Positions 12,835 through 59,630 of a DNA stretch of 64,000 nt are shown here, one piece after another. The first letter of the stretch is position 1. Each line of letters begins with the position of its first letter. Source of the stretch: Arthrobacter citreus (GTDB taxonomy: Bacteria; Actinomycetota; Actinomycetes; Actinomycetales; Micrococcaceae); NCBI RefSeq assembly GCF_038405225.1, contig NZ_CP151657.1, positions 3,348,001 to 3,412,000 of the forward strand, read 5' to 3'. The notes under the pieces were generated by a model. The model ran no database searches. It was not told the DNA's origin and was given only the letters and a program-made list of their open reading frames with translations. A program made the translations under genes and the position numbers.

Positions 12835-13788
12835 GTGAGCGCTGCACCTCCTGAACCTCCGGCCGCCGGAACCCTGGTTTTCCTGCAGGGCGCCGGCGGT
12901 CCCGATCCTGTTCCCGCCCAGACCATCCGTGAGCAGCTGTCGTTGGAACCAGGCCTGGCCGATTACACGGTCCTGAATGTTGCCTGGGCCGCCGGAGCCG
13001 CTCCCGACATCAGCGTGGCGCCCGCCCTGCCCCCGCGCTACCGGGATTCCACCACCGCTGAGATACCCGGGGCCTACAGCGGCGGGCGGGGGATGGCACT
13101 GGTTGGAATGGATTTGCTGCGCGCATCAGCGGCGTGGCCGCCGGGCGCCGGTTCAGCCGCAGGGGCGGATGCAGCGGATGCAGAGAACCTGATGCTGGCC
13201 GGCAGCGTTCAGCGGCTGGTGCTGGGGCTGGTCACGGACGCCGCAGTCAACCGGCGCGTGCCGCTGATGGATGCTGCATCGGATTTTTCCCGCAGTATCA
13301 TCTATTACCTTCGCCGCGGAGCCGAGGCCCGGTCCGTCATAACCAATGCCCTGCGGATGATCCCGCAGGACGCCCCGGTCATCCTGTTCGGCCACAGCCT
13401 CGGCGGCGTGGCCGCCGTGGACCTGTTGACCGGGCCGGAGTGGGATGCGGCCGGAGCGCGCGTTGATCTGCTGGTCACCGCCGGCTCCCAGAGCCCCTGG
13501 CTCTTCCTGCTGAATGGACTGGAACATGTGGGCCCCGGAATTCCCGGGAACGTTCCGGTGCCCTGGCTGAACTTCTGGGATGAACGTGACCTGCTGTCCT
13601 TCTGCGCCGAAGAGGTCTTTTCCGGCAGAGGTGACTTCATCCGCGATGTTCAGATCACCTCGGGTGAACCATTCCCTGCCTCGCATGGTTCCTATTTCAC
13701 CGATCCGGTACTCTACGCGGCCATGCGCGAGCGGATGGCGGGCACGGATCCAGCCCGGGACGGCTCTGGTCCGGACACCGGGGTTTAG
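12835..13788 (+). CDS. alpha/beta hydrolase-like protein of unknown function
   Basis: From GTG 12835 (AAAGG 8 nt upstream) 317 residues. VILFGHSLGGVAAVDLL contains the nucleophile elbow G-H-S-L-G of alpha/beta hydrolases (lipase/esterase type); the N-terminus TLVFLQGAGGPDPV resembles the first strand and oxyanion loop. Candidate acid and His residues lie in NFWDERDLLSF and PASHGSY near the C-terminus. A long variable region (about residues 40-150) separates strand 1 from the elbow. No signal peptide. It lies 15 nt upstream of ku on the same strand, but a link to repair is not evident. Substrate unknown. Confidence 0.7.
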   Translation: MSAAPPEPPAAGTLVFLQGAGGPDPVPAQTIREQLSLEPGLADYTVLNVAWAAGAAPDISVAPALPPRYRDSTTAEIPGAYSGGRGMALVGMDLLRASAAWPPGAGSAAGADAADAENLMLAGSVQRLVLGLVTDAAVNRRVPLMDAASDFSRSIIYYLRRGAEARSVITNALRMIPQDAPVILFGHSLGGVAAVDLLTGPEWDAAGARVDLLVTAGSQSPWLFLLNGLEHVGPGIPGNVPVPWLNFWDERDLLSFCAEEVFSGRGDFIRDVQITSGEPFPASHGSYFTDPVLYAAMRERMAGTDPARDGSGPDTGV

Positions 13789-42178: not shown

Positions 42179-42393
42179 AGTTCCCTTTTCCTTCGAGACC
42201 GGACTGTTGCGGGGGCGGCGCCGGGAGGTGCCGCCATTCGCTACGATGAGTACAAGGGAAACAGCCAGGTGCGGTGGCAGCCCCAAGTCAGGATACAGCC
42301 GGGCCATGGCCCGCTGCGGCAGCACTGCACCCCCGTCCCCGCCATGACCGTCTATACCGGCGCTCCACAGAGCCGGTTCCGCCAGGAGGATCC

Positions 42394-42648
42394 GTGCCCG
42401 AGTCGAAGTCCCGCAAGAAGCCCGCAGCAACCTCACCGGCTGCCGCAAAGACCCCCTCTGCGCCCAAGCCCAATCCGGTGTGGTACAAACCGGTGATGTT
42501 CGGCCTGATGATCATTGGCCTGCTGTGGATCATTGTCTTTTATATTTCGGAATCCCGCTTTCCGATTCCGGCGCTCGGTGCCGGTAATATCCTGGCCGGC
42601 TTCGGGATCGCCATTGTCGGGTTCCTCATGACCACCCGCTGGCGCTGA
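42394..42648 (+). CDS. crgA: cell division protein CrgA
   Basis: An 84-residue protein from GTG 42394 (AGGAGGA ribosome site). Basic N-terminus (SKSRKKPAATSPAAAK), then two membrane helices: PVMFGLMIIGLLWIIVFYIS and LGAGNILAGFGIAIVGFLMT, ending TRWR, the pattern of CrgA. CrgA recruits division proteins (FtsI, FtsQ, CwsA) at the septum in actinobacteria. Position between the pknB region and ppiA is conserved with mycobacteria. Upstream open sequence overlaps the sortase promoter region and is not coding. Confidence 0.95.
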   Translation: MPESKSRKKPAATSPAAAKTPSAPKPNPVWYKPVMFGLMIIGLLWIIVFYISESRFPIPALGAGNILAGFGIAIVGFLMTTRWR

Positions 42649-43265
42649 GGATAACTCCCCGCACTCCAGCGAGCGGTATCCGGCCGGGCCAAGGGAACGT
42701 GACTGGCCCGCAGGCCACCCCCTCTGCCTTCCTCCCCCGCAGCCGCGGCATCCACCCTTCCCCAGAGTCAGCGGGGAACGGTTGTGGATGTCCGCGGCTT
42801 TTCATCGTGTCCCCACCCGGTGTCCCACCCTGTGTCCCAGCCTGTGCAGAACTTTTGTACACACACTGTGCACAGAGTTATCCACAGGTGTGTGTAACTT
42901 TTCGGGCCCGTCGGCAAAAATTACCGCCAGCATAGGCACAGGAGTTATCCACAGCTGTGGAATTACATGTGTGTAACTCGGTTTTGCCTCTGGATAACCT
43001 GTTCACAGCTACCCCAACAGCCTGTGGATAACTCCCAGCGCGCGCGGGCAAACAGCGCATTTAGTGTGGCTGGACCGCCGCACGGACAGCGTCCGCGGTG
43101 CCGGCCCGTCCCGGTCCCGCCCTTAAGCAGACCGGATTTCCGCCCCAAATTGCGATCGTCGAACCCATCGGAGCCCGCAGTGCCTCCGCGAGTTATTAAC
43201 ACTGTGGGTATCCCTGTGGAAAACATTTCGATGCTTGTGGACAGTGCGGGCAGCATACCGGCGGG
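42649..43265. other. gene-free interval with a DnaA-box cluster
   Basis: The 617 nt between crgA and the rhomboid gene show no credible gene. The centre (42842-43031) is AT-richer than its surroundings and contains three perfect TTATCCACA boxes (42878-42886 +, 42945-42953 +, 43023-43031 -) and one single-mismatch box (42989-42997 -, TTATCCAGA), arranged + + - -. The 11-mer TGTGTGTAACT occurs at 42889-42899 and a matching GTGTGTAACT near 42969-42978, each following a box. Two weaker boxes, TTTTCCACA (43215-43223, -) and CTGTCCACA (43236-43244, -), lie closer to the rhomboid stop. The true oriC is 14 kb away. Confidence 0.8.
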
Positions 43266-44123
43266 TTACAGGAGCAGCAGCCCCTTTGCTCCTGCCAGCA
43301 CCGCGGTGAGGACGCACAGGACAACGACGATGACGGCCAGGCCGCCAAACTGGACCAGGGCCCGTTTATTGCCCTTGGGTGCGTACACGAGGACCGCCGC
43401 GCAGGCGGCGCCGGTCAACAGGCCGCCCAGATGGGCCTGCCAGGCAATGTTGGGGATAAAGAATCCCAGGGCGAAGTTGGCCGCGAGCAGGATCAGCACT
43501 GACCGGACACTGGCGCGGCGCTGCAGCAGGACCACCAGGAGGGCGCCGAACAGGCCGAAGATCGCTCCGGAGGCTCCCACGACGGCCTGGTTGATCGGGC
43601 TGAGGGCCAGTACACCCACGGAGCCGCCCAGTGCCGATACCAAGTACAGCAGGGCAAACCGGAGCCGGCCCAGTTGGGGTTCAAGTCCCTGCCCCAGGAA
43701 CCAGAGCGCATAGAGATTGAAGAGAATGTGCAGGATCGAACCGGGCGAATGCAGGAAGGCAGCGGACAGCATCCGCCATGGTTCAACCCCAGTGTAGAGC
43801 GGGGCATACAGCAGTTCGCGAGTGAAGGCGGGGTTCAGGTACTGAATCACAAAAAACACCGCGCAGATGACCATCAGCGTGATGGTGACCACGGGCTTAC
43901 CCTGCACGGCTTTTCCACCGTACGGGGTCCGGTATGCGGGCGCGGAACGCCGGCTTTCCTGGAAGCAGTCCACGCACTGAATGCCTACCGGGGCAGCGTG
44001 CTGGCATTCGGGGCAGGCTGCCCGGCCGCAGCGCTGGCAGCGGATGTAGCTGACCCGGTCCGGGTGCCGCGGGCAGACAGGAACCTGTGAGGCTGGTGTT
44101 TCAGCAGGCACTCCATACGACAT
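43266..44123 (-). CDS. rhomboid family intramembrane serine protease
   Basis: A 285-residue membrane protease with an N-terminal cytosolic zinc-finger-like segment (Cys17, Cys29, Cys32, Cys37, Cys40, Cys50, Cys53 with nearby His), then six membrane segments. Catalytic Ser185 is in GASGAIFGLFG and His231 in WQAHLGGLLTG; LYAxWxxGxxLE appears as LYALWFLGQGLEP. Rhomboids cut substrate membrane helices; the target is unknown. The B-box-like finger is a common actinobacterial addition. Gene position beside ppiA and crgA is conserved. GGGAG precedes the start. Confidence 0.93.
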   Translation of the reverse strand: MSYGVPAETPASQVPVCPRHPDRVSYIRCQRCGRAACPECQHAAPVGIQCVDCFQESRRSAPAYRTPYGGKAVQGKPVVTITLMVICAVFFVIQYLNPAFTRELLYAPLYTGVEPWRMLSAAFLHSPGSILHILFNLYALWFLGQGLEPQLGRLRFALLYLVSALGGSVGVLALSPINQAVVGASGAIFGLFGALLVVLLQRRASVRSVLILLAANFALGFFIPNIAWQAHLGGLLTGAACAAVLVYAPKGNKRALVQFGGLAVIVVVLCVLTAVLAGAKGLLLL

Positions 44124-44164
44124 TGCGGTACTCCCAAAGAGAAATGAGGCCAGATGGACGAAAG

Positions 44165-44191
44165 GCCCCGGCCGGAGATTCCGGCCGGGGC
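44165..44191 (-). terminator. hairpin after ppiA
   Basis: A 12-bp perfect GC stem (44165-44176 and 44180-44191, loop GAT), 14 nt past the ppiA stop and followed on the minus strand by CTTT. It separates ppiA from the rhomboid gene. Confidence 0.75.
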
Positions 44192-44204
44192 ATCCGTGAA
44201 CGGG

Positions 44205-57439: not shown

Positions 57440-57690
57440 GGTCAGATGTTATTTGGTGGAACTGAATTTCTTAAGGTTCGTAGTGTTAATAACTCCTGTG
57501 GATACTGTGGATAACCCAGCCCATCGTCGCATCATGGCGTTTTAAGCCTGTGGATAACCTGTGGGTCCACGCTGCGGCGAACTCGGCGGGCTGTGGGGAA
57601 CTTTTATGTAATTCCGCGTATCCACAGGGAACTGCTGCCTACAGGGAGTTATCCACCGGGTTATCCACAGCCTTGTCCACATCTGTTAAT
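57440..57690. other. oriC: chromosomal origin oriC
   Basis: In the 565-nt gene-free gap between dnaN and dnaA there are seven DnaA boxes: 57497-57505 (GTATCCACA, -), 57506-57514 (-), 57549-57557 (-), 57618-57626 (GTATCCACA, +), 57649-57657 (TTATCCACC, +), 57661-57669 (+) and 57673-57681 (TTGTCCACA, +). Three are perfect TTATCCACA. Orientation is - - - then + + + +. An AT-rich stretch at about 57440-57495 (GATGTTATTTGGTGGAACTG and TGTTAATAACTCC) is the likely unwinding element. The remaining dnaN-proximal 250 nt hold nothing recognised beyond a small palindrome. Confidence 0.93.
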
Positions 57691-59152: not shown

Positions 59153-59630
59153 AAAAACCTCTCGTGATCGCCCTCAGCGGTCTCAGAAAACATGGAAGCC
59201 CGATCGGGGTTCCGGCGGTTCATCCACAGAGTTATACACAGTTGGTGGATAAAACGCCCGTGGCCAAGCCTAGAGGATGATTTACCCCGGTGGTAGCTGG
59301 ATTCCGGCTGTGGACAGCCGCTGGGACTGGGCTCACATGGCCCCGTGCCGAGGCCCGCGCACGGCAGTTGTCCACAGGTGTGGATGTAATTGTATAAACA
59401 GGGCATGGACGTGATGCCCTGCTGCCCGGTTTGACTGGCGGCGGTCCTGCCCCTAACGTGGAGTAGTCCTTTGTGTCTGCTATCTGCACTCATTCATGCC
59501 CATCAGGGTTCTGGGAATCAGGGTCCAGGTCCGGGTTGAGAGCAGTCAGAACACATGAAATAAGCGCCGCTTGTTCTTCCCCCTTGTCGTAGCAAGCCAG
59601 CGCAACTCAGATTGTCTTGGAGTAACTACC
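59153..59630. promoter_or_regulatory. dnaA-rpmH divergent promoter region with DnaA boxes
   Basis: A 478-nt gene-free interval. DnaA boxes: perfect TTGTCCACA at 59368-59376 (+); single-mismatch forms TCATCCACA 59220-59228 (+), TTATACACA 59232-59240 (+), TTATCCACC 59244-59252 (-) and CTGTCCACA 59309-59317 (-). They concentrate near dnaA, as expected for dnaA autoregulation. The rpmH promoter must lie between about 59440 and 59600 but no clear -35/-10 pair was fixed. Confidence 0.75.

Follow-up and report, generated by a model that had tools for sequence, protein, structure and literature searches.

The gene-free interval between the convergent genes crgA and rhomboid in Arthrobacter carries a cluster of DnaA boxes together with a conserved palindrome. 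We read it as the Arthrobacter version of a DnaA control site that is ancient in the Actinomycetia and lies close to the origin, a sink of the datA/D78 kind with a second DNA-binding partner, and give this reading a probability of about 60%. Comparison of loci shows the boxes and the palindrome TNACA-N4-TGTNA kept together 3′ of crgA and/or rhomboid across genera and families, and DnaA would be expected to bind the Arthrobacter boxes. Actinobacteria, including Streptomyces, mycobacteria and soil Arthrobacter, start replication once per cycle under a control that is poorly known, and they are not known to possess the E. coli partners. With a DnaA site recognisable across the class, and beside it a second conserved motif that hints at a partner protein, this control becomes testable by finding the binder and removing the site; the mycobacterial site, for which selection in patients was known before, also gains a wider setting. 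What is new here is the breadth across the Micrococcaceae and other actinobacterial families; the mycobacterial site itself was already known.

The DnaA-box cluster in its genomic context

All positions are those of the window, the 64-kb stretch of DNA analysed, unless the chromosome is named. The interval is 617 nt long (42649–43265). crgA, encoding the cell division protein CrgA (42403–42648, + strand; Pfam PF06781, E 5e-29), runs into it from the left with its stop at 42648, and the rhomboid protease gene (43266–44123, − strand; Pfam PF01694) ends at its right with the stop at 43266; no inserted gene lies between them. The initial annotation had described three perfect boxes and one single-mismatch box in + + − − order, which is borne out at 42878–43031: two perfect boxes (TTATCCACA) on the + strand, at 42878–42886 and, 67 nt further on, at 42945–42953, are followed on the − strand by the single-mismatch box TTATCCAGA (42989–42997) and the third perfect box (43023–43031), the fourth member of the set. 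A weaker box claimed further right is present as well (TTTTCCACA, 43215–43223, −), as is the GTGTGTAACT element after two of the boxes, at 42890–42899 (+) after box 1 and at 42969–42978 after box 2. The second of these overlaps the right half of an operator-like palindrome, TTACATGTGTGTAA (42963–42976), which contains part of it, was absent from that annotation and is more conserved than the boxes. An ultraconserved block of 33 nt, GTTATCCACANCTGTGGAATTACATGTGTGTAA, spans 42944–42976 (+) and is kept across genomes of the genus. The patch is indeed AT-richer, as had been noted, with 49.7% G+C in the box core against 65.1% in the window.

Six perfect boxes were observed in the window, against 0.11 expected by chance, and 27 in the complete 3.88-Mb chromosome, where at least three within 200 nt are found at two places only, the crgA/rhomboid site and oriC. 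Estimated from the chromosome-wide box density, the chance of three perfect boxes in 154 nt is about 1e-5 per genome. The earlier statement that the site equals oriC in perfect boxes holds, with three each; the oriC boxes, between dnaN and dnaA, occupy 57497–57681, the perfect ones 57506–57669, at a distance of some 14–14.5 kb from the site. GC skew was computed by 2 kb and 10 kb, together with third-position skew by strand, and over the surrounding 400 kb the cumulative minimum lies not at oriC but near the crgA site (window 36000–58000), where gene orientation switches too.

The four best DnaA-box clusters in 400 kb are oriC, rplI–dnaB (chromosome 3456049–3456296), crgA–rhomboid and rpmH–dnaA, the last consisting of four weak boxes between dnaA and rpmH (59220–59376). 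Four other genera likewise have the dnaB cluster upstream of that gene. The matching interval of M. tuberculosis lies between Rv0010c and Rv0011c, the latter being crgA. The initial annotation was not aware of an element described there; in fact, Hicks et al. (2020; PMC7738170) had mapped DnaA in vitro to five regions of M. tuberculosis DNA, Rv0010c–Rv0011c among them. Their peak upstream of dnaB is matched here by the rplI–dnaB cluster and their rpmH–dnaA peak by the boxes at 59220–59376. Since the ranking of clusters picks out four of the five regions that DnaA binds in mycobacteria (PMC7738170), it provides the best evidence that the crgA/rhomboid cluster is a real DnaA site.

Conservation within the genus and the Micrococcaceae

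When the alignment proposed in the initial annotation was run, boxes and spacing proved to be kept in relatives; unconserved boxes, the result that was to count against the claim, were not what was found. Each of the 23 Arthrobacter loci examined first has at least three perfect boxes, mostly at the 67-nt spacing, and in an alignment of 22 loci mean identity reaches 95% at box positions versus 66% at other columns. Box 1 is kept in 21 of the 22 aligned congeners, with TTGTCCACA in the remaining one, and the single-mismatch box reads TTATCCATA or TTATCCAGA. The GTGTGTAACT after box 1 drifts in congeners to GTGGGTAAC, GTGGATAAC and similar forms and amounts to a weak inverted DnaA box. The nearest named genomes to that of the window are Arthrobacter gandavensis and relatives.

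In a sample of 197 genomes, the 12 that represent the genus all have GTTATCCACANCTGTGGAATTACATGTGTGTAA without mismatch, and 44 genomes from 8 genera have it with at most two mismatches. The changes in those 44 genomes fall almost entirely in the DnaA box and its flank, and TGTGGAATTACATGTGTGTAA is unaltered in 43 of them; in the Micrococcaceae, the palindrome is more conserved than the adjoining box. In several genera of the family, crgA and the cluster are separated by other genes, amounting to about 5.5 kb at most, which marks the place as an insertion hot spot. A contig titled Vibrio cholerae strain 35D contains a crgA 70% identical to the Arthrobacter one along with a DnaA-box cluster, and this record looks mislabelled or contaminated.

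Conservation in other genera and families

Among 80 named loci, which were collected through CrgA using an alignment of its closer relatives, the 3 kb located 3′ of crgA contain 264 perfect boxes and the 5′ side contains one. Viewed from the other gene, 106 loci have, within 700 nt of rhomboid, 203 perfect boxes on its 3′ side versus none on its 5′ side. What stays next to the cluster is the 3′ end of rhomboid: several genera have genes between crgA and the cluster, which remains at the rhomboid 3′ end, and in 12 genomes with crgA and rhomboid apart or far apart, the boxes lie 3′ of rhomboid in all 12, some of them only as single-mismatch forms. In other families, a perfect box lies within 300 nt of the crgA stop in 19 of 40 loci, compared with a total of one in the upstream controls, and several high-GC families have weak boxes only, or none, at the corresponding place. 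The site is the largest or co-largest tight perfect-box cluster in each of five complete genomes of other genera. Streptomyces-like genomes, a label assigned by the relatedness of their sortase to PDB 5go5 alone, have two perfect boxes plus TTGTCCACA 3′ of crgA in 7/7 cases. Mycobacteria-like genomes, assigned solely by a CrgA close to PDB 2mmu, have one perfect box at about +111, 3′ of crgA.

The palindrome and its candidate binders

The class-wide form TNACA-N4-TGTNA was defined after some of the counted sequences had been viewed, and the sampled genomes are related, so that the loci are not independent and the counts are descriptive: in 123 of 138 loci the 700 nt 3′ of rhomboid contain it, with at most one mismatch, no more than 60 nt away from a DnaA box, and its density there is 1.87 per kb versus 0.067 elsewhere. 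Control DNA contains 8 box-plus-palindrome composites in 957 kb. Scored against ATTACACGCGTGTAAT, at least 12 of 16 positions agree in 16 of 40 crgA 3′ regions of other families and in 0 of 392 control stretches. The variants beside boxes include TCACACGCGTGTGA in mycobacteria-like genomes, TTACACGCGTGTAA in one further family (f32) and TGACGCCGGTGTGA in some Streptomyces-like genomes.

The mycobacteria-like palindrome beside the boxes, AATCACACGCGTGTGATTC, has GAATC at its edge. At the M. tuberculosis site, GAATC is the reported target of IS6110 insertion (PMC7738170), which is consistent with this being the palindrome described there. Hicks et al. read that palindrome as two DnaA-like boxes (PMC7738170). 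Contrary to their reading, the loci compared here make it look like a separate conserved element with counterparts across the class.

In its own genome, TTACANNNNTGTAA is found at two places, the crgA/rhomboid site and a position upstream of a gene that we assigned to the WhiB family by eye from the protein sequence, an NCBIfam search having returned no match. The copy upstream of this gene is a perfect palindrome, ATTACACGCGTGTAAT (chromosome 2349637–2349652), and in 6/6 loci checked the copy away from the crgA/rhomboid site precedes the same gene. At 0 mismatches the palindrome is absent from the oriC, dnaB and rpmH–dnaA sites of the genome.

The upstream copy suggests a link to the division programme. 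We tentatively propose that a dimeric regulator, so far unrecognised and present across the class, uses the palindrome as its operator; it would act with DnaA at this one origin-proximal site and at the whiB promoter and thereby tie replication control to that programme; this is possible, at somewhat worse than even odds. If so, the mycobacterial palindrome under convergent selection would be the site of this regulator and not a pair of DnaA boxes.

Three known regulators were considered as binders. The BldD box is 5′-TNAC(N)5GTNA-3′, and whiB is a BldD target (PMC4151990); the TNAC/GTNA half-sites are common to both, but the palindrome has a spacing of 6 instead of 5 in all families inspected (TTAC-N6-GTAA), and BldD was rejected. 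WhiA was rejected as well, GACAC being missing from the Arthrobacter and mycobacteria-like palindromes. MtrA is a possible binder: it recognises direct repeats spaced by about 11 nt, has whiB as a reported target in S. venezuelae, and binds the M. tuberculosis oriC (PMC6265350, PMC5650626). An nTnAC...GTnA pattern with an 11-nt spacing can be made out in the palindrome halves; however, the palindrome is symmetric, often perfectly so, and a direct-repeat binder needs no symmetry, which MtrA would leave unexplained.

A proposed DnaA sink with a partner

Lying 14.5 kb from oriC, the site would double soon after initiation and thereby supply more high-affinity boxes, which would draw DnaA from the new origins. 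We infer this role from the position of the site and from the precedent of Streptomyces and datA. In addition, a second dimeric protein, suggested by the conservation of the palindrome, may govern the timing or manner of DnaA occupancy. The proposal in the initial annotation of a non-promoter cluster of the datA or B. subtilis kind is supported.

Smulczyk-Krawczyszyn et al. in 2006 reportedly described the S. coelicolor DnaA-box clusters H69, H24 and D78, of which D78, located elsewhere, is said to have been tested in vivo and to act as a repressor. These share with our site the character of origin-proximal DnaA-box clusters. E. coli datA has several DnaA boxes outside oriC and is thought to lower active DnaA, but it includes an IHF site, whereas the partner position in Arthrobacter holds a different palindrome; we know of no usable sequence motif for an actinobacterial IHF. 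The feature common to datA and D78-like sinks, a cluster of high-affinity boxes outside oriC on the origin side of the chromosome, is found at the Arthrobacter site. For the S. coelicolor and B. subtilis clusters, a datA-like function in repressing untimely initiation has been described (PMC10950094).

The closest parallel is the Rv0010c–Rv0011c site, which shares the location 3′ of crgA and 13–15 kb from dnaA, as well as DnaA boxes and the palindrome; on the other hand, mycobacteria-like genomes have one perfect box, in contrast to three to six in Arthrobacter. Its homologue in M. smegmatis is bound by DnaA in vivo by ChIP-seq, and the authors saw no counterpart in other species (PMC7738170). 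In M. tuberculosis, point changes in the site lead to longer cells and a likeness to reduced-activity dnaA variants, while the initiation rate is unchanged (PMC7738170). The unchanged rate calls for caution against a plain sink and leaves room for DARS-like and coordination roles. A pure sink would not, on our analysis, predict this combination of longer cells, unchanged initiation and likeness to reduced-activity dnaA, nor would it need an exactly conserved block of 33 nt.

Alternative explanations

One alternative is a DARS-like function, in which ordered inverted DnaA boxes would promote nucleotide exchange on DnaA and so activate initiation. The constancy of the spacing and the lack of variation in the 33-nt block point to an ordered complex rather than a mere sink, and the mycobacterial mutants resemble reduced-activity dnaA variants (PMC7738170); yet their initiation rate is unchanged and D78 of Streptomyces reportedly works as a repressor (summarised in PMC10950094), and we regard this function as unlikely.

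It is quite unlikely that DnaA and the palindrome protein control the transcription of the neighbouring crgA or rhomboid gene or of some unannotated RNA. The M. tuberculosis interval is upstream of Rv0010c (PMC7738170), and the palindrome stands upstream of whiB as operators do, but in Arthrobacter both crgA and rhomboid end at the interval, and the boxes track the rhomboid 3′ end even without crgA. Expression of both Rv0010c and Rv0011c is unaltered in dnaA mutants (PMC7738170). An Rfam scan of 42300–44200 gave no match above threshold, and a structured RNA at the site was rejected on this result.

DnaA and its partner might instead serve segregation or division by organising or anchoring the origin region, leaving the level of DnaA unaffected. 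The site is origin-proximal and adjoins the division gene crgA, and the mycobacterial mutants are longer at an unchanged initiation rate (PMC7738170), but no segregation protein is known at the palindrome, and we hold such a role to be improbable. A second or relic replication origin, which the initial annotation had offered as part of a bipartite origin or as a relic moved by an insertion, is very improbable: the perfect-box number equal to that of oriC and the cumulative skew minimum near the site speak for it, but the skew switch coincides with the gene-orientation switch and third-position skew by strand does not settle the matter, the lowest-GC 40-mer has 38% against 33% at oriC, no gene has been inserted, and the site is not next to dnaA but holds the same place in much of the class, where dnaA–dnaN keep their own boxes.

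Apart from these alternatives, oriC itself carries ATGTAATTCC at 57598–57626; read on the opposite strand this is GGAATTACAT, a part of the conserved block. In M. tuberculosis, one of the strongest CRP ChIP peaks lies at 13474, inside Rv0010c and about 150 nt from the DnaA site (PMC4117774).
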